Origin: Gammaproteobacteria bacterium
GTDB taxonomy: Bacteria > Pseudomonadota > Gammaproteobacteria > SURF-13
Direction: 5' to 3'
DNA: 34,408 bases
Assembly: GCA_030655395.1 (NCBI GenBank)
Contig: JAURVQ010000056.1
Coordinates: forward strand, 1 to 34,408
The position numbers and the translations under genes are program-made. The notes beneath the pieces are model-generated. The model saw nothing but the letters and a program-made list of their open reading frames with translations, did not search any database and was not told the DNA's origin. Positions 1 through 23,434 of the stretch are shown piece by piece. Each line of letters opens with the position of its first letter. The stretch's first letter is position 1.

Positions 1-825
1 GATGGCGAAGTGGCGCCGATTGCGGTGCAGATCGCCGGGACCGACGCGCGGATGATGGCCGAAGCGGCCGCCTACAACATCGATCACGGCGCGCAGATCA
101 TCGACATCAACATGGGCTGTCCGGCCAAGAAGGTGTGCAACGTGATGGCGGGTTCCGCCCTGTTGCAGGATGAATCACTCGTCGCGCGCATCCTTGAGGC
201 GGTGGTGAAAGCGGTAGCGGTGCCGGTCACCCTGAAAATCCGCACCGGCTGGGACAAAGGCCATCGCAACGGCATTGCCGTGGCGCATATTGCGGAGATG
301 AGCGGCGTGCAGTCGCTCGCAGTGCACGGACGCACGCGCGCCTGCGCCTACACCGGCGAGGCCGAATACGACACCATCGCGGCGATCAAGGCCGCGGTGA
401 AAATTCCGGTGCTGGCGAACGGCGACATCCGCACGCCCGAGCAGGCGAAGTTCGTGCTCGACTACACCGGTGCCGACGGCGTGATGATCGGGCGCGCCGC
501 GCAGGGCCGTCCGTGGATCTTCCGCGGCATTGCGCATTACCTCGCCACGGGCGAAGTGCTGCCGGAGCCCGGCATTACCGAAATCCGCGATATCCTGCTC
601 GACCACATGCGCAATCTGTATGCGTTCTACGGCGAACACACCGGCGTGCTCATGGCGCGCAAGCATTTGTCGTGGTACAGCAAGGGCCAGAGCGGCGGCG
701 CGCTGTTCCGTCAAACCATTAACGCCGCCGCCGGCATCAAGCAGCAGACGTCGCTCACGCACGAATTTTTCGATCGCCTGGTTGAAGCCTCCGCCGACGC
801 GGCCTGCGCGGAGATGGCGGCATGA
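1..825 (+). CDS. dusB: tRNA-dihydrouridine synthase B, 5' end outside window
   Basis: Reduces specific uridines in tRNA D-loops to dihydrouridine using FMN and NADPH in the cytoplasm. The reading frame is open to the left edge, so roughly the first 50 residues are missing compared with the usual ~320 residues. The visible part is a TIM barrel containing the family motif NMGCPAKKV with the catalytic Cys, the LKIRTGW strand, the VHGRTR motif, and the FMN-phosphate region ANGDI and GADGVMIGRAAQGRPWIF. The stop overlaps the fis start as ATGA (822-825), which implies translational coupling. dusB-fis is the classic gammaproteobacterial bicistron, and the upstream promoter lies outside the window. 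Confidence 0.97.
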   Translation, partial: DGEVAPIAVQIAGTDARMMAEAAAYNIDHGAQIIDINMGCPAKKVCNVMAGSALLQDESLVARILEAVVKAVAVPVTLKIRTGWDKGHRNGIAVAHIAEMSGVQSLAVHGRTRACAYTGEAEYDTIAAIKAAVKIPVLANGDIRTPEQAKFVLDYTGADGVMIGRAAQGRPWIFRGIAHYLATGEVLPEPGITEIRDILLDHMRNLYAFYGEHTGVLMARKHLSWYSKGQSGGALFRQTINAAAGIKQQTSLTHEFFDRLVEASADAACAEMAA

Positions 826-1106
826 ACGCCGCGCCGCGTCACGGCAAATCCGCGCCGCCCTGCGAAGGGCGCCCGAACAAGCCGCTGCGCGACTGCATCC
901 GCGCCGCGCTGGAGACCTACTTCAAGGACCTTGACGGACACAAGGCAGGCGACCTGTACCAGATGGTGATTTGCGAAGTCGAACACCCGCTGCTGAAAAG
1001 CGTCATGGAACACACGCGCGGCAACCAGAGCAAGGCGGCGGAGATTCTGGGCCTCAATCGCAGCACCTTACGCAAAAAATTGAGCCAACATGGGTTGGAC
1101 AAATAA
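822..1106 (+). CDS. fis: DNA-binding protein Fis
   Basis: Small nucleoid-associated DNA-bending protein that regulates rRNA, recombination and growth-phase genes. It has 94 residues against 98 in E. coli. The core PLRDCIRAALETYF and the C-terminal helix-turn-helix (TRGNQSKAAEILGLNRSTLRKKL, roughly residues 64-87) are clear. The N-terminal 20 residues are basic and poorly conserved, as is usual for the family. The start is fixed by the ATGA overlap with dusB. Stop codon TAA is at 1104-1106, seven bases before a large inverted repeat that may act as a transcript end. Confidence 0.97.
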   Translation: MNAAPRHGKSAPPCEGRPNKPLRDCIRAALETYFKDLDGHKAGDLYQMVICEVEHPLLKSVMEHTRGNQSKAAEILGLNRSTLRKKLSQHGLDK

Positions 1107-1112
1107 TAATAA

Positions 1113-1179
1113 AGTAGCTAGTGGCGAGTGGCGAGTAGCGAGTAGCAATCTATCCCCTCGCCACTCGCCACTAGCTACT
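1113..1179. repeat. 23-bp perfect inverted repeat of the GTGGCGAGTGGCGAG family
   Basis: Arms 1113-1135 and 1157-1179 are perfect reverse complements over 23 bases and are separated by 21 bases. The arm core is CTAGTGGCGAGTGGCGAG. The loop contains GAGTAGCAA, which is close to the AAGTAGCAA words found at 17549 and 24291. Related copies lie at 16531-16612 and 23415-23430. The whole fis-purH gap is occupied by this element. It could fold into a strong hairpin, but no T-run follows on either strand, so it is not a canonical intrinsic terminator. Confidence 0.9.
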
Positions 1180-1196
1180 CGCAACTTGGTGTGCGC

Positions 1197-2759
1197 ATGA
1201 TCAAACGCGCCCTCATCAGTGTCTCCGACAAGACCGGCGTCGTCGAGTGCGCGCGGCGTCTGCAACAGCTCGGCGTTGAAATCCTCTCCACCGGCGGCAC
1301 CGCAAAACTGCTGGCCGCCAACGGCATCAACGTCATCGAGGTATCCGGCCACACCAGCTTCCCCGAAATGATGGATGGCCGCCTCAAAACCCTGCATCCC
1401 AAAATCCACGGCGGCCTGCTCGGACGCCGCGGCATCGACGACGCCGTGATGGCGCAACACGGCATCGCGCCCATCGACCTGCTGATCGTCAACCTCTACC
1501 CGTTCGAGAACACCATCGCATCACCCGCCTGCACCTTTGCCGAGGCGGTCGAGAATATCGACATCGGCGGTCCGGCCATGCTGCGCGCCGCCGCCAAGAA
1601 TTTCGCCGCGGTCACGGTGCTGGTGGATGCGGGTGACTACGCCCGTGTCGTCGATGAAATCGCCGCGCACGGCGGCGTGAACGACGGCCAGCGTTTTTCA
1701 CTCGCGGTGAAGGCATTTGAACACACCGCGCGTTACGACGCCGCCATCGCCAATTACCTCGGCACGCTGAACGGCGCCGGTCAACGCGAGGCACAATTTC
1801 CGCGCACCTACAGTGTGCAATTCCGCAAGGCGCAGGAGCTGCGTTACGGTGAAAACCCGCACCAGCGCGCCGCGTTCTACGTCGAGCAACATCCTCCAGC
1901 GGCCTGCGTCAGCAATGCCAGTCAGCTACAGGGCAAGGAACTTTCGTTCAACAATATCGCCGACGCCGACACCGCGCTTGAGTGCGTGAAATCGTTCACC
2001 GAGGCGCCGGCCTGCGTCATCGTGAAGCACGCCAACCCGTGCGGCGTGGCGCTCGGCAAGACCGTGCGCGAGGCGTATCTGCGCGCCTACAGCGCCGACC
2101 CCACCTCGGCCTTCGGCGGCATCATCGCCTGCAACGAGCCGGTGGATGCAGCGAGCGCGCAGGCCATCATCGAGCGCCAGTTCGTCGAGGTCATCATTGC
2201 GCCCGCCTACAGCGAGGAGGCGCTCGCGCTGCTCGGCATCAAGCCCAACGTGCGCGTGCTCGCCTGCGACCCGTGGTCCACGGCGCGCGTTGCGAGCCTC
2301 GACTACAAGCGCGTCAACGGCGGGCTGCTGGTGCAGGATCAGGACCTGGGCATTATCCATCCGCAGGATTTCAAGATCGTCACTGAGCGCGCGCCGACGC
2401 CGACGCAGATGCAGGACCTGCTGTTTGCCTGGAAGGTGGCGCGCTTCGTCAAATCCAACGCCATCGTTTATTGCAAGGACGCCATGACCACCGGCATCGG
2501 CGCCGGGCAGATGAGCCGCGTCTACAGCGCGCGCATCGCGGCCATCAAGGCCGCCGACGCCGGGCTCACCATCAGCGGCTCGGTACTGGCGAGCGACGCC
2601 TTCTTCCCGTTCCGCGACGGCCTCGACGCGGCGGCGGAGGCCGGCGTGAGCGCGGTGATCCAGCCCGGCGGCTCAATGCGCGACCCGGAAGTCATCGCCG
2701 CCGCCAATGAACACGGCATCGCCATGGTGTTCACCGGCATGCGTCATTTCCGGCACTGA
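1197..2759 (+). CDS. purH: Bifunctional AICAR formyltransferase / IMP cyclohydrolase
   Basis: Catalyses the last two steps of IMP synthesis. ATG at 1197 gives 520 residues starting [14 protein letters not shown], the family's usual N-terminus. An in-frame GTG at 1191 would add only two residues. The N-terminal methylglyoxal-synthase-like IMP cyclohydrolase domain (about 1-145, with STGGTAKLL and [18 protein letters not shown]) is followed by the AICAR transformylase domain with [31 protein letters not shown] and the C-terminal [10 protein letters not shown]...QPGGS. No good Shine-Dalgarno is visible before the start, because the upstream DNA is the inverted repeat. purD follows after 7 bases. 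Confidence 0.97.
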
Positions 2760-5573: not shown

Positions 5574-8500
5574 TCAGTGCAGCGTCTCCATGCGCCCGCC
5601 TGCCAGATCGCGGATGTTATCCAGCAGATCGACCTCCTGGAACGGCTTGCCCAGGTAACGGTTTACGCCTACGGCGAGCGCGCGTTCACGGTGCTTCTCG
5701 CCGGTACGCGAGGTAATCATGATGATCGGCACGCCGCGCAAGCGCTCATCGCTGCGCATGTGCATGGCAAGTTCATAACCGTCCATGCGCGGCATTTCGA
5801 TATCGAGCAGCATCACGTCCGGCACATGCTGCTGCAACAATGTGAGCGCATCGACACCGTCCTTCGCCGTCAGCACTTCCATGTTGTGGCGCTCAAGCAG
5901 GCGTGTGGTGACCTTGCGCACGGTGATCGAATCGTCCACCACCATCACGGTGAGTATCTTGCGTCCAGACTCTTTGGCGGCCCCGGCTTCGGGCGCAGCC
6001 GCTGCTGTGGCCGTACGCAGCATCGCGGCGATGTCGAGCATCAGCACCACGCGCCCGTCGCCCATGATGGTGGCGCCGGTAATGCCCTTCACCGTACTGA
6101 TCTGCGCCCCCACGGACTTCACCACGATTTCGCGGCTGCCGATAAGCCCCTCGACCTGGAGGGCCACGTGCTGCTCCCCGACGCGCACCAGCAGGGCCGG
6201 GGTCTTTTTGCCCGGTCCCGGAAATTGCGGATGGCTGGCGTTCAGCAGTGTGCCGAGATGGAGAAACGGATGTTCCTGGCCCGCGAGCCGGTAGATGCGT
6301 TCGTCGCTCGCATACAACTGCTCCAGTTCTTCGTGCGTAATGCGCAGGATACGCTCGACGCTGGTCAGCGGAATGGCGTAGACATCGTCGCCCACCTGCA
6401 CCAGCAGCACCTGGCTCACGGACAGCGTAAACGGCAGGCGCACGGTGAAGGTGGCGCCCATGCCCGCCTCGGAGGCGATGGAGAGCGTGCCGCCCAGTTG
6501 CTTGATCTCGCTGCTGACCACGTCCATCCCCACGCCACGCCCCGAGATCTGCGTGATCTCCCGCGCCGTACTGAAACCGGGCTCCAGGATGAACTGCATG
6601 AGTTCGGTATCGCTCACCTTGGCGTGCTGGGTCAGCAGGCCGCGCTCGACGGCCTTGGCGCGCACGCGCTCCAGATCGAGGCCGCGCCCGTCGTCGCTGA
6701 TGGCGATCACGATGTCGGCGCCTTCGCGCCCCAGCCTCAGATTAATAGTACCCGCCGCTGGCTTGCCCGCCGCGCGGCGCACCTCAGGCAGCTCGATACC
6801 GTGATCGACGGCGTTACGCAGCATGTGTTCAAGGCTCGACACCATACGATCCAGCAGGGTGCGGTCAATTTCGCTCTCGGCGCCGGAGATACGCAGTTCC
6901 ACCTCCTTGCCCAGCTCCTCGCCGGTCTGACGCAGGATGCGGCGCAGGCGCGGCAGCACCACGGAGAACTGCACCATGCGCGTGCGCATCAGACCTTCCT
7001 GCAGGTCGGTATTCACGCGCGCCTGCTGCACCAGCAGCATTTCCGATTCGCGCACCAGACCCTGCAACAGGCCCTGAATGCTCGCCATATCGCTCACGCT
7101 CTCCATCAAGCTGCGCGAGAGCTGCTGCATCTGGGTAAAGCGGTCAAGCTCCAGCGGATCGAACTCCGCCTCGTGCGCCCTGCCGCTCTCGGCATGGCGG
7201 AACAGGATTTGCGTCTCGGTTTCGATTTCGAGCCGGCGCAACTGGTCGCGCAGACGCGCCACCGTGCGCTCCATTTCCACCAGGTTGAATTTGAAGCCGT
7301 TGATCTGCTGTTCGACGCGCGAGCGCGCGATGCTCACCTCGCCGGCGTAGTTGACGAGATGGTCCAGCAGATCGGCGCGTATGCGAATCTGTTCATGTTG
7401 TACGCGCATACCGCCGCGGCGATCTTCCTGCGCGTCGATCTGGTCTTCAGCTTCCTCCGGCGCTTCATACGGCGCCGCCACTACCGGCTTGTGCTCCGCT
7501 GCCGCCGGCGCTGGAATCGGCGCGGCAGACTCCGGCAGCAACATGCCGTCGATCTGCGCGACAAGATCGTGCGCCGGCTCCAGCGGCTGATGGGCGTGCA
7601 GGCGATCCAACATCGCCAGCAGGCGATCCTGGGCTTGCTGCACCAGCGCGGTAATGCGCGCCGACGGCGTGAGTAGTCCTTCCACCATCGCGGTGAGCAG
7701 GGACTCCAGGCTGTGGCTCAAATCGCCCATCTCGGTGATGTCCGCCATGCGCGCACCACCCTTCAGCGTGTGCAGTTCGCGCTGCAACTCCTCAAGCAAC
7801 GCGCGGTCGGCGGGCCGCTTGATCCATTGCTGCAGGACGATGTCGCTCGCATCGAGGATTTCCTTCGCCTCCTCCATGAACACCGCCACCATCTCGCTGT
7901 CGTGCTCTGCGAAAACCGGTGTTTGCGCCGCAGGCGCCGTGCCCGCCGCAGCCTCCGCCAGGCGCGCGGCGCGTTGTTCCTGCGCCTTGCCGAGCAGGCC
8001 GCTGATGTGTGCCTGCAACGCGCTGCTGTCGGGCGACACGGCGCCCGTATCCTGCAATGCCGTGAGCTTGTCGCGGATCAGCGCGCACACCGCGCGCAGC
8101 GTATCCAGCGCCTCGCCGTCGAGCAGTGCCTTGTCATCACGCAGTATCTTGGCGTATTCCTCCATCACATCGCACAGCGCGGCGATGTCCGGCACGCCCG
8201 CCATCGCCGCGCTGCCGTGCAGGGTATGCAAGGTGCGCACGAGACTGTCGTTTACCCCGCACTCCGCTGGCTCAATCTGACAGCGCTCGATGAATTCCCC
8301 CAGGGCGGCGAGATGCGCGGCGGTTTCCCTGCTGTAGATGTCGAGCAGCACCGGATCGATCGCGGGTGCGGCGGCGCGCGTCTCCGGCGCCGCCTCGGTC
8401 TGCGCGCCGACGGGGGGTGCGACAGAGACCCCGGGTTGACTCAGCGCGCTTGCGCGCTCCATCAAGGCCGGAATATCCGTCAGCGGTGTGGTGTTGCCCT

Positions 8501-11502: not shown

Positions 11503-13548
11503 TCAACCCGGCAGCTTGAAGCCCGACACCGAGGTACGCAGATCATCGGCGAGGTCAGCCAGATTACCGATGGAGGCCGCGGTTTCATTGGAGCCGACCG
11601 AGGTCTGCATGGCGATCTCGCGGATCACGTTCATGGTCTCGGAGATGTTGCCCGCCGCGGCGGACTGCTGCCGCGCGGCGTGCGAGATGCTCTGCACCAG
11701 TTCCGCCAGGTGGATCGAGACGCGCTCAATCTCGCGCAGCGCCTCACCTGCGTCCTGCGCCAGCCGCGCGCCACTCACCACACCCGTGGTGCTCTGCTCC
11801 ATGGAGATGATCGCTTCATGGGTGTCGGTTTGAATCGTCTTCACCAGCGCCTCGATCTGCTTGGTCGCATTACCCGAGCGCTCCGCAAGACGCTGCACCT
11901 CATCCGCCACCACCGCAAAGCCGCGCCCGGCCTCGCCTGCCATCGCCGCCTGGATGGCGGCGTTCAGCGCCAGGATGTTGGTCTGATCAGCGATGTCGTT
12001 GATGAGTTCGACGATGTCGCCGATCTCCTGCGAGCTTTCGCCCAGACGCTTGATGCGCTTGGAGGTTTCCTGAATCTGCTCGCGGATGGCGTCCATACCC
12101 TGAATCGTGCTCTGCACCACCTGCACGCCCCTGTCCGCGATCGTCACCGAGCGCAACGCCACTTCCGATGACTCCACGGCGTTGGCCGACACCTGCTCGA
12201 TGGACACCGCCATTTCATTCACCGCGGTACTCGCCTCGGTGATCTGCTGCGCCTGGTTATCGCTCGCCTCGGCCAGCAGGATCGCGGTGGTCTGCGATTC
12301 CTGCGCCGCCGCCGACACCTGCACCGTGGTTTCGTTGATGACCGTCACCAGGTTACGCAGGGCGTCGATGGCATAGTTGACGGAGTCGGCAATGGCTCCG
12401 GTGAAGGCCTCCGTCACCGTGGCGCGGGTGGTGAGATCACCCTCCGCGAGGCCCGCCATTTCATCGAGCAGACTGAGAATCGCCTCCTGGTTGCGGCGGT
12501 TCTGCTCGCTACTGGCTTCCAGGCGTCGCAAGGCATCGCGTTGCAGCTTGTAACCCAGCCCGATCAAGGTAAGCAGCGTGAGCACACCGAGCAGGTAACC
12601 GTACACCGGCGATACGACACGGCTCCCTTCCAGTCCGGTATAGGCATTTACCAGGTCGGTGCTGTCCTTGAACAGCGCACGGCTCACCAATCCGATGGAG
12701 GCGGCGGCATCCTGGGTCTTGAACAGGTCGGGGAATTTTTCCAGGATGAGCAGATCGAGGTCGAAGATCGAACTCAACATGAGCGAGATTTCTTCCAGTT
12801 GCTGCAGTATCTCGGGGTCGGAAACCGCGCTGATCCCCAGGGCCGGATTGCCGCTCTTCAGCGCCTCGAGGTTGGCGGCGAACAATGACACCGAGCGGCG
12901 GAACGTATCCGCCGCCTGTGCCGCTTCTTTCGAGGTCTGCGCGCCCTGGAATACGCGGTTTACGCTCGAACTGATGCGCTCGATCAAAAGCAACTGGCTG
13001 TTGGCCGCGAGCAGGTTTTCCGCGCTTGCGCTGCGGCTCTTCATGGTCTGCACCAGTTGCTCCGAGGCCGTGACCAGCTTCGGCACCACGTCGTTGGTGG
13101 TCTTCACGAACGCGGTGGCGGATTTGAGCAACTCCTCATTCGCCAGAATGGTGTCGATATTGCCGCGCGTACCTTGCCACTGGTTGACCACCTTGGTCAA
13201 CGGCACGGAGACTGCGGCGGGCGAGGGCGGCAGACCGGAATCGGCATTACCCTTCTGCAGGTGGCCCAATAGCTTCCCGGCCTGGGCGCGCGCATCGGCC
13301 AGGTCCTTGAACACCTCGGGCCGCGCATTCACGGTGACCGCGACGGCGGCATCCTTGGCCGTGGTTTCCGCCAGCAGGCGCAACTCGCTCGCGCCGGTAA
13401 GGTATTCCTTATCGTGCTTTGCCTGCCGGCCCAGATAGCCGAAGGTGAGCGCGAGCAGGGCGATGAACACCACCAGAAGACCGATGAGGAGCACCAGCTC
13501 CCGGTCGAGGCCCCGGGCCTGCCCGGCGACCTTGGATTTCAGTTGCAT
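11503..13548 (-). CDS. pilJ: Pilus chemosensory methyl-accepting protein
   Basis: Inner-membrane chemoreceptor that feeds the ChpA kinase. It has 681 residues, almost exactly the length of Pseudomonas PilJ. The first membrane helix is at about 18-39 and the second at about 316-336 (LLGVLTLLTLIGLGY), enclosing a periplasmic PilJ-type domain. A HAMP-like segment and the methyl-accepting signalling domain follow. The hairpin tip (about 523-552) is NILALNAAIQAAMAGEAGRG then [11 protein letters not shown]; the AAM in place of AAR is unusual but also typical of PilJ proteins. A Shine-Dalgarno AGGGAG precedes the ATG. The 67-base gap to pilI holds no gene. Confidence 0.96.
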   Translation of the reverse strand: MQLKSKVAGQARGLDRELVLLIGLLVVFIALLALTFGYLGRQAKHDKEYLTGASELRLLAETTAKDAAVAVTVNARPEVFKDLADARAQAGKLLGHLQKGNADSGLPPSPAAVSVPLTKVVNQWQGTRGNIDTILANEELLKSATAFVKTTNDVVPKLVTASEQLVQTMKSRSASAENLLAANSQLLLIERISSSVNRVFQGAQTSKEAAQAADTFRRSVSLFAANLEALKSGNPALGISAVSDPEILQQLEEISLMLSSIFDLDLLILEKFPDLFKTQDAAASIGLVSRALFKDSTDLVNAYTGLEGSRVVSPVYGYLLGVLTLLTLIGLGYKLQRDALRRLEASSEQNRRNQEAILSLLDEMAGLAEGDLTTRATVTEAFTGAIADSVNYAIDALRNLVTVINETTVQVSAAAQESQTTAILLAEASDNQAQQITEASTAVNEMAVSIEQVSANAVESSEVALRSVTIADRGVQVVQSTIQGMDAIREQIQETSKRIKRLGESSQEIGDIVELINDIADQTNILALNAAIQAAMAGEAGRGFAVVADEVQRLAERSGNATKQIEALVKTIQTDTHEAIISMEQSTTGVVSGARLAQDAGEALREIERVSIHLAELVQSISHAARQQSAAAGNISETMNVIREIAMQTSVGSNETAASIGNLADLADDLRTSVSGFKLPG

Positions 13549-15238: not shown

Positions 15239-16546
15239 ATGCGTAGTGAAGCGCTGCATACCGTTCCCCACCTTACCACGGCTCTCAATGGGCCGCTGCA
15301 ACTGATCGAACGCCATCTGCTGGCGCACCAGGCGCGCATCGAGCACTGGCTGCGCCAGCAGTGGCTGGAAACGCCCGCGCCGTTTTACACCTCGGTGGAC
15401 CTGCGTAACAGCGGCTTCAAGCTCGCACCGGTGGACACCAATCTGTTCCCGGCTGGGTTCAACAACCTCAATCCCGCCTTCCTGCCGCTCTGCATCCACG
15501 CCGTGCAGAGCGCCATCGAACGCACCTGTCCGCGCGCGGCCAACGTGCTCATCATTCCGGAGAGCCATACGCGCAATCTGTTTTATCTTGAGAGTCTGGC
15601 CACGCTGCGCGACATCATTAAGCGGGCGGGCTTTGAGGTGCGCATCGGCTCGCTGCTGCCGGATCTTGCGCAGCCGCTGGATGTCCTGCTGCCCTCGAAA
15701 CGCAGCCTGCGACTCGAGCCGGTAAGCCGCAGCGGTGACCGCGTGAGCGTAAAGGACTTTACGCCCTGCATGGTGCTGCTCAACAACGACCTCTCCGCAG
15801 GGCGGCCCGCCCTCCTGGAAGGTCTGGCGCAACCTGTGGTTCCGCCGCTGGCGCTCGGCTGGTCCAACCGGCTCAAGTCCGACCATTTCGAGCACTACAA
15901 ACAGGTGGCGGCGGAATTCGCCGAACTCATCGACATCGACCCGTGGCTGATCGACCCCTTGTTCCGCCGCTGCGGCGAGATCAACTTCATGAAGCGCGAG
16001 GGCGAAGACTGCCTCGCCACCAACGTCGATGCGCTGCTGGTCGCCATCCAGCGCAAATACGACGAATACGGCCTCGACAAACGGCCCTTCGTGGTGGCAA
16101 AGGCCGACGCCGGCACTTACGGCATGGGCGTGATGAGCGTGCACAGCGGCAACGAGATGCGCGAACTGAATCGCAAGGAGCGCACGCGCATGGCGGCCAT
16201 CAAGGGCGGCCAGGAGGTGAGCAAGGTCATCATGCAGGAGGGCGTGTACACCTTCGAGACCCTGGGCGAGGCCGGCAACGAGGCCGTCGCCGAACCGGTG
16301 GTGTACATGATGAACCATTTTGTCGTGGGCGGTTTTTACCGCGTACACAAAAACCGCGGGGTCGACGAAAACCTGAACGCCCCCGGCATGCACTTCGAGC
16401 CGCTCGCCTTCGCCGAGCCATGCACCGCGCCGGATCATAGCCAGGCACCTGACGCCGGCCCCAACCGCTTCTATGCCTATGGCGTGATTGCGCGGCTGGC
16501 GCTGGTCGCGGCGGCGAGGGAATTAACGGCAGTGGCGAGTAGCTAG
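15239..16546 (+). CDS. gshA: Glutamate-cysteine ligase, Acidithiobacillus-type
   Basis: First step of glutathione synthesis. The start at 15239 (MRSEALHTVPHLTTALNGPL) matches the family N-terminus; a longer frame beginning at 15128 is rejected. It has 435 residues of the proteobacterial ferroox-type GshA family, which is unrelated in sequence to E. coli GshA. Conserved-looking segments are PFYTSVDLRNSGFKLAPVDT, NLFPAGFNNLNP, VAKADAGTYGMGVM, EPVVYMMNHFVVGGFYRVH and NLNAPGMHFEPL. The last residues (VASS) and the TAG stop (16544-16546) are written by the dispersed GTGGCGAG repeat, so the native C-terminus has probably been changed. Confidence 0.93.
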   Translation: MRSEALHTVPHLTTALNGPLQLIERHLLAHQARIEHWLRQQWLETPAPFYTSVDLRNSGFKLAPVDTNLFPAGFNNLNPAFLPLCIHAVQSAIERTCPRAANVLIIPESHTRNLFYLESLATLRDIIKRAGFEVRIGSLLPDLAQPLDVLLPSKRSLRLEPVSRSGDRVSVKDFTPCMVLLNNDLSAGRPALLEGLAQPVVPPLALGWSNRLKSDHFEHYKQVAAEFAELIDIDPWLIDPLFRRCGEINFMKREGEDCLATNVDALLVAIQRKYDEYGLDKRPFVVAKADAGTYGMGVMSVHSGNEMRELNRKERTRMAAIKGGQEVSKVIMQEGVYTFETLGEAGNEAVAEPVVYMMNHFVVGGFYRVHKNRGVDENLNAPGMHFEPLAFAEPCTAPDHSQAPDAGPNRFYAYGVIARLALVAAARELTAVASS

Positions 16547-16612
16547 TGGCGAGGGGTACTGGAAGGCTGGGTATGAAAGATTTTTCTAGCGACTCGCCAC
16601 TCGCCCCTCGCC
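16531..16612. repeat. GTGGCGAG-family repeat spanning gshA 3' end and gshB 5' end
   Basis: Left part AGTGGCGAGTAGCTAGTGGC carries the gshA stop. The right part ACTCGCCACTCGCCCCTCGC (from 16592) is its degenerate reverse complement. Nine-base matches pair 16532-16540 with 16592-16600, and 16548-16556 with 16604-16612. It is the same family as 1113-1179, but more diverged and carrying 35 bases of unrelated DNA between the parts. It contains the likely ribosome-binding site and ATG of gshB. Confidence 0.8.
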
Positions 16613-17568
16613 CCTGTCTCAAACTTGGCGTAGTGATGGATCCCATCGCCCGCATCAACATCACAAAGGACACCACCTTCGCCATGCTGCTGGCGGCGCA
16701 GCAGCGCGGCTGGTCGCTCAGCTATATGGAACAGGGCGATCTGTTTCTGCGCGATGGGCGTGCCTGCGCGCGCATGCGCGCGTTGCGCGTTCAGGACGAC
16801 GCTGAACGATGGTTTGAATTTACCGGCGCGGAATCCGCGGCGCTGGACACGCTCGATGTCATTCTGATGCGCAAGGATCCGCCGTTCGACATGGAATATC
16901 TCTACACCACCCTGCTGCTGGAACGCGCCGCAGCGGCCGGCGTGCGGGTGGTGAACAAACCGCAGGCGCTGCGCGACTGCAACGAAAAATTATTCACTGC
17001 CTGGTTTCCGCAATGCACGCCGCCGACGCTGGTGACGCGCGACGCCCATGCCCTGCGCGCCTTTCTCGCCGAGCACGGCGACATCATCCTCAAACCGCTG
17101 CACGGCATGGGCGGCGCCTCCGTGTTCCGGTTGCAGAGCGGCGATCCCAACATCAACGTGGTGATCGAAACGCTGACGCAGCACGGCGGCGGCTTCATCA
17201 TGGCACAGCGCTTTATTCCCGAGATCAGTGAAGGCGACAAACGCATCCTGATGATTGACGGCGAACCCGTGCCGTACGCGCTCGCGCGCATCCCCGCGCC
17301 GGGCGAGACCCGCGGCAACCTCGCGGCGGGCGGGCGTGGCGTGGGCGTACCGCTGTCCGCGCGCGACCGCTGGATCTGCGCCGAGGTGGGGCCGGAGCTG
17401 CGCGCGCGCGGCCTGCTGTTCGTGGGGCTCGATGTGATCGGCGATTACCTCACCGAAATCAATGTCACCAGTCCGACGTGTGTACGTGAACTCGATATAC
17501 TCTATGGGTTAAACATTGCAGATTCTTTTCTCGATGTGGTTGAGAAAAAAGTAGCAATAAAAAAGTGA
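16573..17568 (+). CDS. gshB: Glutathione synthetase
   Basis: ATP-grasp enzyme adding glycine to gamma-glutamylcysteine. The family start is normally just before the KLGVVMDPI strand, but no start codon exists there. ATG 16573, six bases after GGAAGG, is the best choice and gives 331 residues with about 15 extra N-terminal residues (KDFSSDSPLAPRP) encoded by the repeat. Signatures are RINITKDTTFAMLLAAQ, ILMRKDPPFDMEYLYTT, VVNKPQALRDCNEKL, LKPLHGMGGASVFR, QRFIPEISEGDKRI and EINVTSPTCVREL. The C-terminal tail VAIKK and its TGA lie in an AAGTAGCAA repeat. It overlaps the next ORF by GTGA. Confidence 0.94.
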   Translation: MKDFSSDSPLAPRPCLKLGVVMDPIARINITKDTTFAMLLAAQQRGWSLSYMEQGDLFLRDGRACARMRALRVQDDAERWFEFTGAESAALDTLDVILMRKDPPFDMEYLYTTLLLERAAAAGVRVVNKPQALRDCNEKLFTAWFPQCTPPTLVTRDAHALRAFLAEHGDIILKPLHGMGGASVFRLQSGDPNINVVIETLTQHGGGFIMAQRFIPEISEGDKRILMIDGEPVPYALARIPAPGETRGNLAAGGRGVGVPLSARDRWICAEVGPELRARGLLFVGLDVIGDYLTEINVTSPTCVRELDILYGLNIADSFLDVVEKKVAIKK

Positions 17569-17578
17569 CAAGTAGCAA
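17549..17578 (+). repeat. Paired AAGTAGCAA words at gshB 3' end
   Basis: The nonamer AAGTAGCAA occurs at 17549-17557 and 17570-17578. The same word occurs twice at 24291-24313 after pyrK, and a near copy is at 1140-1148. Four exact copies in two close pairs, both at gene ends, is far from random for a nine-base word in 34 kb. The gshB stop lies between the two copies, and the apbE-like start overlaps the second. Confidence 0.7.
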
Positions 17579-18611
17579 ACCAGAGCCGCTGTATCAAGAA
17601 CAGATTCTCGCCCTCGGCGCACTAGTAGACATCAGTATCTGGGGCATAGAGCCCGGCGCCGCGCGCCATGCCGCCGATGAAATCACTGCGGACTTCAATC
17701 GCATCCACACCACCTGGCATGCGTGGAAGCCCAGTGAGCTCACACGCATCAATGCGCAACTTGTCACGGGCAATGCCTTTTCCGTTAATCCGGAAATGAT
17801 TCCGCTGCTGGTGCGGGCGCGCGTGTTGTCGCAAGCCAGCGATCATCTGTTCAACCCCGCCATCGGCCAGTTGCTCGCGCGCTGGGGATTTCAGGGCGAC
17901 GAAGCCAAAGGCCCGCCGCCCGACCCCGCCGTCATCCACACACTGATCGCACAGCACCCGACCCTGGACGACGTGGTGATTGAGTACAGTCATTTGCGCA
18001 GCACCAACCGCGCCGTGCAACTCGACGTCGGCGCCATCGGCCAGGGCTACGCGGTGGATGTCGCCATCGCGCATCTGCGCAAGCTCGGCATCGAAAACGC
18101 GATGGTCAACGCCAGCGGCGACATCCGCGTCATCGGCAGGCACGGCAACCGTCCGTGGCGCATCGGCATCCGCGATCCGCGCGGCAGCGGCATCCTCGCC
18201 TCCATCGAGCTGCACGGCGACGAGAGCATCGTCACCTCCGGCACCTACGAGCGCTACTTCGATTACGCCGGTAAACGCTACCACCACATCATCGACCCGC
18301 GCACCGGCTATCCCGCGCAAGGCACACTGTCCGTCACCGTGCTCGCGCGTGACGCCGCCAGCACTGCGCTGGTGCTGGCACTGGCGTACACCGCTTCACA
18401 ACGCCTGCCCGGCGCTGGTCTTAGCGCGCTGGGCTACAGCGTGCTCGCGGCGCTGGCGCACATGGCGGGCCAGTTCGCCGTGGCCTACACGCTGTTTATT
18501 CCGCACCCGGCGCTGCTGCACCTGCTGCCGGTGTTGATGAGCGCCGCCGTGATCTTTGGCGCGGTGAGCGGTATAATTGCGCAAGCCATGCTGACCGAAG
18601 CAGGTTCATAA
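17565..18611 (+). CDS. ApbE-like FAD:protein FMN transferase fused to Gx-transporter C-terminus
   Basis: Residues about 10-265 match the ApbE family, which attaches FMN to Thr/Ser of exported flavoproteins such as Rnf, Nqr and NosR: DVGAIGQGYAVDVA, MVNASGDIRVIG, IVTSGTYERYF, YHHIIDPRTGYPA and SVTVLARDAASTAL. From about 275 it changes into hydrophobic sequence (LGYSVLAALAHMAGQFAVAY, then FIPHPALLHLLPVLMSAAVIFGAVSG) typical of the end of Hpre_diP_synt_I/Gx-type membrane proteins, often encoded next to apbE. There are 348 residues. No signal peptide or lipobox is seen; GTG 17565 overlaps gshB by 4 bases and lies in repeat sequence. It looks like an in-frame deletion fusion of two adjacent genes; activity is doubtful. 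Confidence 0.8.
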   Translation: MTSSKPEPLYQEQILALGALVDISIWGIEPGAARHAADEITADFNRIHTTWHAWKPSELTRINAQLVTGNAFSVNPEMIPLLVRARVLSQASDHLFNPAIGQLLARWGFQGDEAKGPPPDPAVIHTLIAQHPTLDDVVIEYSHLRSTNRAVQLDVGAIGQGYAVDVAIAHLRKLGIENAMVNASGDIRVIGRHGNRPWRIGIRDPRGSGILASIELHGDESIVTSGTYERYFDYAGKRYHHIIDPRTGYPAQGTLSVTVLARDAASTALVLALAYTASQRLPGAGLSALGYSVLAALAHMAGQFAVAYTLFIPHPALLHLLPVLMSAAVIFGAVSGIIAQAMLTEAGS

Positions 18612-22024: not shown

Positions 22025-23319
22025 TGCGCATCATCATTAAAAACGGCCGCGTCATCGACCCCGCGCACGGCATCGACAAGGTGCAGGACGTGTATGTCGC
22101 CGACGGGCGCATCGTGGCGCTCGGCAAAAAACCGGACGGCTTCAGCGCCGACCTCAGCATCGACGCGCGCAACCGGATCGTGTGTCCGGGACTGGTGGAC
22201 CTCTCCGCGCACCTGCGCGAACCCGGCGCCGAACACAAGGCCACCATTGCAAGCGAGACGCGCGCCGCAGCGGCAGCGGGCATCACCACGCTGTGCTGCC
22301 CGCCGGACACCGATCCGGTCACCGACACACCGGCGGTGGTGGAACTGATACGCCGCCGCGCGGAACAGGCGGGGCTGGCGCACGTCATCCCGCTCGGTGC
22401 GCTCACCAGGGCGCTGGCCGGTAACGAGCTGAGTGAAATGGCGGCGCTACAGCGAGCCGGATGTGCGGGCCTGAGCAACGCACGGCGCCCCATCAGCAAC
22501 ACGCTGGTACTGCGCCGCGCCATGGAGTACGCCGCCACGTATGGCATCACCGTATTTCTGCACGCCGAAGACAGCGCACTCGCCAACGGCGGCTGCGCCC
22601 ATGAAGGCGCCGTCGCCACGCGCCTCGGCCTGCCCGGCATTCCGGAGTCCGCCGAAACCGTGGCGCTCGCGCGTGACCTCGTGCTCATCGAACAGACCGG
22701 CGTGCGCGCGCATTTCTGCCGCCTCTCCAGCGCACGCGCGGTACGCATGATCGCGCGCGCCCGGCACGACGGGCTCAACGTGACGGCGGATGCCAGCGCG
22801 CACCATTTATATCTCACCGAGATGGACATCGGCCATTTCAACAGCCAGTGCCACGTGCTGCCGCCGCTACGCACGCTGCGCGACCGCGACGGCCTGCGCC
22901 AGGGCCTCGGCGACGGCACGCTAGCCGCCGTCTGCTCCGATCATCAGCCGCACGAATCCGATGCCAAGCTCGCGCCGTTTACCGAAACCGAGCCCGGCAT
23001 CTCCGCGCTCGAAACCCTGCTGCCGCTCACGCTGCGCCTCGCCGATGAAAAGGTGCTGTCACTTTCCGATGCGCTTGCACACCTCACCTGCAACCCCGCG
23101 CGGATACTCGGCCTCGACGCAGGCACACTGGAAACGGGCCAGGCAGCGGACATCTGCATCTTCGACCCCGAGTGCTACTGGACACTCAGCGCAGACACAC
23201 TCGTCAGCCGCGGCCACAATACGCCGTTCCTGGGCTGGGAACTCAAGGGCCGCGTGACGCATACGCTATTAAATGGGAAAGTGATATATGAATTTAACAA
23301 TACGAGTAGGTTGGGTTAG
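22021..23319 (+). CDS. pyrX: Dihydroorotase-like protein, degenerate metal site (PyrC'/PyrX)
   Basis: Amidohydrolase-fold protein of 432 residues. The HxH metal motif of active enzymes (DLHVHLREPG) reads [10 protein letters not shown], so the first His is Ser. The TDDG segment with the bridging Asp reads LSNARRP, and the later metal His (HVST) reads [20 protein letters not shown] and CSDHQPHE are kept. Loss of three ligands with a preserved fold is the pattern of the inactive dihydroorotase that assembles with ATCase in Pseudomonas, so a true pyrC should exist elsewhere. The final residues SRLG and the TAG stop come from the repeat at 23306. Confidence 0.9.
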
Positions 23320-23411
23320 GCGCGGTTTTTTGCGCCGTAACCCAACAAAGACCGACGGTGTTGAAGTTTGAGTTTGTTGGGTTACGCGATAAAGCCGCTA
23401 ACCCAACCTAC
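23306..23411. repeat. REP/BIME-like palindromic element, GTAGGTTGGGTTA family
   Basis: Outer arms GTAGGTTGGGTTAG (23306-23319) and CTAACCCAACCTAC (23398-23411) are perfect. Inner arms GTAACCCAACAAA (23337-23349) and TTTGTTGGGTTAC (23373-23385) are also perfect. Each half is itself a hairpin closed by TTGGGTTA/TAACCCAA. Paired, oppositely oriented units of this kind are typical of REP elements mobilised by RAYT-type transposases. It fills the pyrC'-pyrK gap and supplies the pyrC' stop (TAG 23317-23319). Confidence 0.88.
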
Positions 23412-23414
23412 ATG

Positions 23415-23430
23415 ACTCGCCACTCGCCAC
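23415..23430. repeat. Half-copy of the CTCGCCACTCGCCAC repeat
   Basis: ACTCGCCACTCGCCAC directly follows the REP-like element and matches the right arm of the 1113-1179 inverted repeat. It ends five bases before the pyrK ATG and replaces the place where a ribosome-binding site would be expected. Confidence 0.75.
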
Positions 23431-23434
23431 TATC

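Follow-up and report, generated by a model that had tools for sequence, protein, structure and literature searches.

A perfect palindrome between fis and purH, probably one copy of a dispersed family of heptad hairpins

Why should a long and perfect palindrome stand between fis and purH, and does it act on purH? In the window (the whole stretch of DNA analysed, 34,408 nucleotides), an inverted-repeat search found two arms of 23 nt, 21 nt apart and 100% complementary, and so confirmed the perfect inverted repeat that a sequence-only reading had noticed. By equal-base arithmetic, about 3e-8 such inverted repeats (spacer 0-60) would be expected in the window by chance. The palindrome begins 6 bp past the fis stop and finishes 17 bp ahead of the purH ATG, the latter distance being correct as that reading gave it. 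It does not form the whole spacer, as had been claimed, since the 67-bp repeat fills about three quarters of the 90 bp between the fis stop and the purH ATG (Table 1).

Both arms are tandems of period 7 according to TRF (AGTAGCG x4.9 on the left, CTCGCCA x4.3 on the right). The right arm, read as its reverse complement from outer to inner, consists of AGTTGCG, AGTAGCT, AGTGGCG and AGTGGCG. Exact pairing spans three units plus AG; beyond it, the right array has one more outer unit and the left array two more inner units. Structure prediction on both strands, a check that had been proposed, gave a stable fold on each: RNA of 1107-1200 folds at -51.1 kcal/mol (z -7.9), and the opposite strand at -54.7 (z -8.7). 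We consider that the palindrome is probably one copy of a dispersed non-coding family, a passenger resembling REP or MITE elements and not a switch for purH.

Table 1. Features of the window, with positions counted over the whole stretch
Feature	Position	Strand	Basis
fis (94 aa)	822..1106	+	Pfam HTH_8 'Fis family' 8.9e-16
fis 3' end, like other genera and not like congeners; likely edge of a recombined tract	1037..1106	+	diagnostic sites, identity
fis-purH spacer	1107..1196	+	sequence
Left arm, five heptads: AGTAGCT AGTGGCG AGTGGCG AGTAGCG AGTAGCA	1113..1147	+	sequence, TRF
Interval between the perfect 23-bp arms (remaining left heptads and loop)	1136..1156	+	
Right arm, inverted heptads; 1157-1179 complements 1113-1135 exactly	1157..1186	+	
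purH, ATG at 1197; GTG at 1191 is an alternative ORF start	1197..2759	+	Pfam AICARFT_IMPCHas 4.2e-126, MGS
Older family member at gshA-gshB	16531..16615	+	GshA and GSH-S Pfam; element and loop common to G001, G002, G003
Sparse A-type heptads	17552..17586	+	two-armed elements in G001, G002, G003; longer A-type element in G005
GTAG-tagged REP-like palindrome pair, standing where a heptad element would have its left arm and loop	23306..23411	.	comparison with G001/G003
Surviving right arm of that 23.3-kb heptad element	23415..23431	-	TRF, site comparison

A family of convergent heptad arms

We distinguish two kinds of unit, a K type AGTRGCK (R=A/G, K=G/T) and, in a sister subfamily, an A type AGTRRCA. 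G000, the genome to which the window belongs, is a MAG of 1.72 Mb in 120 contigs and is 97.9% complete. In a genome-wide copy search, as the sequence-only reading had suggested, the K pattern AGTRGCKAGTRGCKAG had 36 exact 16-nt matches in this genome against 0 for a reversed-pattern control (55 against 1 with one mismatch allowed), and the A-type pattern AGTRRCAAGTRRCAAG had 41 against 0. The matches fall at about 20 distinct K-type sites and 18 A-type sites, some of them one-armed, and the fis-purH palindrome is thus not unique.

Arms mostly consist of 2-4 tandem heptads and converge on a short, often A/T-rich loop. We found convergent orientation in 112 of 114 adjacent arm pairs, a count that includes some overlapping loci and in which G003 and SURF13, treated as two groups, probably represent a single genome; in a second count of arm pairs, 57 of 64 converged, 3 diverged and 4 were in tandem. 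Four units were present in 25 of 35 arms of the congener G001, and the 30 arms counted in G000 included 11 with two units, 10 with three and 8 with four. In G000, G001 and G003, an A-rich stretch and then, in most cases, a C precede the arm, and G and A-rich sequence comes after it. Unpaired arms also occur (20 beside 22 pairs in G000, 10 beside 24 pairs in G001), and a looser look at these 30 found no partner for 24. Among the 55 pairs found, 40 were K-K, 15 A-A and none mixed; A-type sites were selected from G000 only (17 regions), and the A-A count therefore rests mainly on that genome. The looser look at the unpaired arms turned up one mixed element (locus L075) and two A arrays beside K pairs, and the mixed element softens any rule that arms never mix subfamilies.

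The family lies near gene ends at the sites examined. One copy is flanked by infB and rbfA, and others lie upstream of rplL, rpsH, ftsA, amidase, trpD-like, FtsJ-like and pyruvate kinase genes, the copies at the amidase and FtsJ sites being one-armed. The amidase gene may be gatA, and the gene ahead of trpD may be trpG. The ORF upstream of rplL had no Pfam match, so we do not claim it as rplJ.

Related copies at 16531 and 23415 had been described as degraded. Both copies exist, and simple degradation describes neither: relatives have the former too, and the latter is the remaining right arm of an element that another repeat has disrupted. In the gshA-gshB copy, the left arm holds the gshA stop (16544-16546), the loop holds a probable gshB ATG (16573), and the right arm is translated within the gshB N-terminus. 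The heptad family resembles in this the Rickettsia palindromic elements, which are palindromic repeats able to enter coding sequence. G000-G003 have K elements at gshA-gshB with similar loops and different arms, and G005 has A-type units in both arms, as judged by eye. The site upstream of trpD is likewise of K type in G001 and G002 and of A type in both arms in G000; if both arms switch jointly between K and A, ectopic gene conversion among copies at different sites could account for it. Near 17560, the loop of the G002 element is inverted relative to G001 and G003 (alignment scores of 33 and 38 in reverse orientation, 12 and 11 in forward orientation), and 0 of 2000 shuffles were as good. 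At the 23.3-kb site, G001 (with a short left arm) and G003 have two-armed elements and G002 has none. The GTAGGTTGGGTTAG palindrome pair at 23306-23411 has many relatives in G001 and is a probable GTAG REP dimer.

Arm exactness and history at fis-purH

The identity of the fis-purH arms had been taken to imply recent arrival or active maintenance, a conclusion that the rest of the family does not bear out. The longest exact match between arms in G000 was 3-13 in nine of ten elements and 23 only at fis-purH. Over the K elements of G000-G005, with the fis-purH copy included, 2 of 40 reach 23 bp; random combinations of left and right arms reach it in 38 of 1,560 cases. Because random combinations also attain 23 bp, the exactness at fis-purH is within chance for the heptad family, and a perfect inverted repeat is by itself a poor ground for inferring maintained structure. 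Nor, in this family of genomes, are the arms of K elements mirrored beyond random pairing. In G001 (n=24), the R and K choices of paired arms agree at 0.455 compared with 0.458 when permuted, with no excess agreement in the best register. For 48 gammaproteobacterial elements mirroring even seemed to lie below random, since 998 and 992 of 1000 permutations equalled or exceeded the observed value in the two registers. A second sample showed this in the inner register for G000 (n=9) and for the family as a whole (pooled n=39, with 15 of 1000 permutations no higher than the observed value), but neither for G001 (n=24) nor in the best register. The exact arms would have come from a chance combination of interchangeable heptad variants, with slippage, gene conversion and template switching presumably changing the number and type of units over time.

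The palindrome is not a conserved, normal leader of purH, a candidate that we rejected on its absence in congeners. The fis-purH spacer is short and repeat-free in G001 and G002, whose PurH proteins are 97% and 87% identical to that of the window, and in a comparison of the site it measured 37 bp in G001 against 99 bp in G000. By eye, the spacer of G003 contains a different palindrome; in G004, a heptad palindrome of GTGAGG type lies a few bases past the fis stop.

To follow the ancestry of the flanking sequence we used diagnostic sites at which G001 and G002 agree and differ from G003 and G004, which also agree. Upstream of 1037, 25 of 33 such sites in G000 are genus-like (3 like the other genera, 5 neither). 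Between 1037 and the fis stop, 11 of 14 are like the other genera (2 genus-like, 1 neither), and in purH 71 of 75 are again genus-like (1 like the other genera, 3 neither). Within the fis 3' patch, identity to G000 falls from 0.97 to 0.71 for G001 and from 0.86 to 0.71 for G002, and stands at 0.81 for G003 and G004. On the simplest reading, a short imported tract would have brought both the fis 3' end and the element. The reverse direction, in which a G002-like replacement in G001 removed the element, is possible, because G001 and G002 are 0.93 identical in the patch compared with 0.84 just upstream. Since the repeat belongs to a family and the copy is absent from the spacer of two congeners, its lineage-specific arrival appears likely. 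To that extent the earlier interpretation is supported, but the perfection of the arms does not support recent arrival or maintenance, as random arms match too.

Weighing the explanations

The G004 palindrome could point to an element already present at fis-purH in the ancestor of the family, with later losses in G001, G002 and G003 and with units turning over in place, a reading that we consider rather unlikely. The palindrome in G004 differs in type from that of G000 (GTGAGG against AGTRGCK), and changes of type in place are seen at gshA-gshB and upstream of trpD; however, three losses would be required, the fis-purH loops of G000 and G004 are unlike by eye, and the G003 palindrome is again different. 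We judge it quite unlikely that perfect pairing is actively kept by template switching during replication (quasipalindrome correction), a process that homogenises arms and inverts spacers (PMC8604942, in part). The inverted G002 loop near 17560 speaks for such a process, as do mirrored arms in some other phyla: 43 of 55 elements from outside the Gammaproteobacteria show, in the best register, no mismatch at the variable positions, a value that was permuted across genomes and so partly reflects composition, and within-group permutations reached the observed mirroring in 20/300, 8/300 and 3/300 cases for three groups of 5-6 elements each (the Brevundimonas group in this test pools several species). 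In the Opitutaceae, by contrast, 210/300 permutations reached it, and the arms of G000, G001, G003 and G048 are not mirrored beyond random pairing. As a means of holding arms identical, template switching therefore failed for the window's lineage, mirroring there being no better than random.

That so stable a hairpin adjoins purH might suggest an intrinsic terminator, or else an attenuator dedicated to purH, which we regard as highly improbable. Read on the minus strand, the hairpin does run into a T-rich stretch (by eye, the reverse complement of 1099-1112), but on the plus strand the sequence past 1179-1186 contains no T run, and an intrinsic terminator was rejected on that ground. The window had no Rfam match at the gathering threshold, which led us to reject a known RNA family, the element is absent in congeners, and related copies stand at many unrelated genes. 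The terminator scan covered loops of 3-8 only; the fis-purH hairpin lies outside this range, and the scan makes no call on it. The lack of an obvious ribosome-binding site before purH, which had been ascribed to the repeat, is not explained by it, because G001 and G002, whose spacers are free of the repeat, likewise show no Shine-Dalgarno sequence by eye. That the element is a REP mobilised by a transposase of the RAYT (Y1_Tnp) kind is also very unlikely. The GTRG tetranucleotide occurs in most heptad units, and Y1_Tnp genes are present in G001-G005, G040 and G048; yet none was found in G000 (97.9% complete as a MAG), none of 24 fetched Y1_Tnp loci contained heptad arrays, and the 9 of 14 sampled genomes outside the window's family that have Y1_Tnp all lack K matches. 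Along the fis-purH arms GTRG recurs inside the stem, with no single unpaired GTAG or GTGG tag, so that tandem heptad arms differ from the single GTAG-tagged stem of a REP. A cognate RAYT was rejected on the missing gene in G000 and the 24 loci.

We return to the explanation that we prefer, a passenger copy of a dispersed family. The multi-copy family, its convergent paired arms, the absence of the fis-purH copy in two congeners and the persistence of elements with changing arms elsewhere are direct observations. The copy would have come lineage-specifically, probably on a short tract of homologous recombination that replaced the fis 3' end. Transcripts of fis and purH presumably read through the element, and their RNA would bear a very stable hairpin, which may act as a mild, generic mRNA element, protecting 3' ends or causing partial attenuation in the way suggested for REPs. 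Such a generic effect seems likelier than a dedicated purH switch because related copies lie at many unrelated genes. Against this explanation stand the uncertain direction of recombination given the G001-G002 identities, the G004 palindrome, and the frequency of one-armed sites (30 unpaired arms against 46 pairs in G000 and G001 together). Inverted arms are a feature of MITEs, but the empty fis-purH sites are too diverged to define a target-site duplication, and no transposase was identified for the heptad family. A further point against it is that purH may have a start of its own, because the plus strand has a promoter-like match at 1080-1107; this and a second one at 1134-1106 on the minus strand were the 2 found, where shuffles led us to expect 0.1.

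Distribution and likeness to described repeats

K matches were found in 8 of 144 genomes, a sample mostly of the window's own class: all six members of the window's family (G000-G005), G040 and G048. The reversed control matched in 5 of the 144. One of these, the class relative G120, has eight control matches, perhaps from another heptad family or a repetitive gene. A two-arm pattern scanned over 84,980 species, with one genome per species, matched at least 113 stretches, where equal-base arithmetic alone predicts about 0.01 by chance. The 80 stretches listed include Gamma- and Alphaproteobacteria (Brevundimonas and others), Sulfuricella, Bacteroidetes, Opitutaceae, classes of Acidobacteria, Kuenenia, Singulisphaera, Chloroflexi, Gemmatimonas and Geobacteraceae. 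Going by record titles, similar hairpins thus appear to occur in eight phyla among the matches listed, mostly in MAGs. In a viral collection of 2.9 million, ten contigs match the two-arm pattern.

It is conceivable, if doubtful, that the AGTRGCK hairpins are a single mobile or horizontally spread family across phyla, mobilised by a system for which the heptad arms suffice and passing between species on short recombination tracts, with arms switching subfamily jointly and single units varying freely. A near-identical heptad unit in eight phyla (by titles, among the matches listed) would offer a tractable system for studying how repeats spread and turn over. So would arms that nearly always share a subfamily although their units are not mirrored one by one, and loops that are kept or inverted from one orthologous site to another.

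Searches of open-licence PMC papers found no occurrence of 15-mers of the heptads, and the AGTRGCK unit is not named in the titles or abstract openings of the related repeat literature searched. The nearest described system that we found appears to be the convergent GGGAATC heptads of Xanthomonas. These mostly have four units per array, form convergent pairs on opposite strands (70 in Xcc, 75 in Xac), are 89% and 93% intergenic and closer to the upstream gene, and lie between the same genes with varying length (PMC4692102, in part). The same source gives GGGGA(C/T)T as the heptameric repeat unit of Nostoc and calls heptameric repeats over-represented in bacteria yet little studied. The family described here shares the tandem 7-nt units (TRF period 7), commonly four in G001, and the convergent array pairs, in both of our counts; in G000, however, two and three units are commoner than four. 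Its AGTRGCK and AGTRRCA units also lack the G runs of the G-rich GGGANTN unit, and the fis-purH arms contain no run of three Gs. We therefore expect no G-quadruplex and, as the defining G runs are missing, regard the AGTRGCK family as a variant of the Xanthomonas-type heptads and not as a member. It differs further in its occurrence in records of eight phyla (by titles, among the matches listed), in paired arms that are nearly always of one subfamily, and in copies that sometimes reach coding ends.

The TAACTGA repeats of Beggiatoaceae are direct heptamers, mostly intergenic and mostly upstream of start codons, patchy over distant lineages and with one inverted case only (PMC4679880, in part). 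Judged by that part of the source, the two families share the heptamer, the mostly intergenic position, the patchy occurrence across lineages and a presence at ribosomal protein genes, but the repeats are direct there and mostly convergent hairpins here. REP/BIME elements and the RAYT-associated GTAG palindromes are likewise short intergenic palindromes near gene ends in several phyla, with plausible RNA hairpins in both cases (PMC3733652, in part); the heptad family differs in having no single GTAG-tagged stem and was not found in the fetched Y1_Tnp loci.

Site comparisons yielded several other observations. At window positions 18365-18402, G000 has 0-63 bp between matching blocks where G001, G002, G003 and G005 have 932-1032 bp, and the G000 ORF at 17565-18611 has ApbE and Hpre_diP_synt_I domains, apparently fused by deletion. 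Four spacers of G001 (7661-7833, 11750-11936, 13151-13357 and 16614-16752 of locus L141, G001:C1:20001-40000) contain palindromes of another family, whose arms have about three 8-nt ACGCMAAG units each and whose loops are unlike; G000 has no such palindrome at any of the four sites, and G002 none at the two that aligned. The same locus has at 2263-2406 a repeat of 145 bp. G000 has many copies of this repeat, up to 96% identical, but lacks it at the orthologous site, and we read it as a MITE-like insertion.
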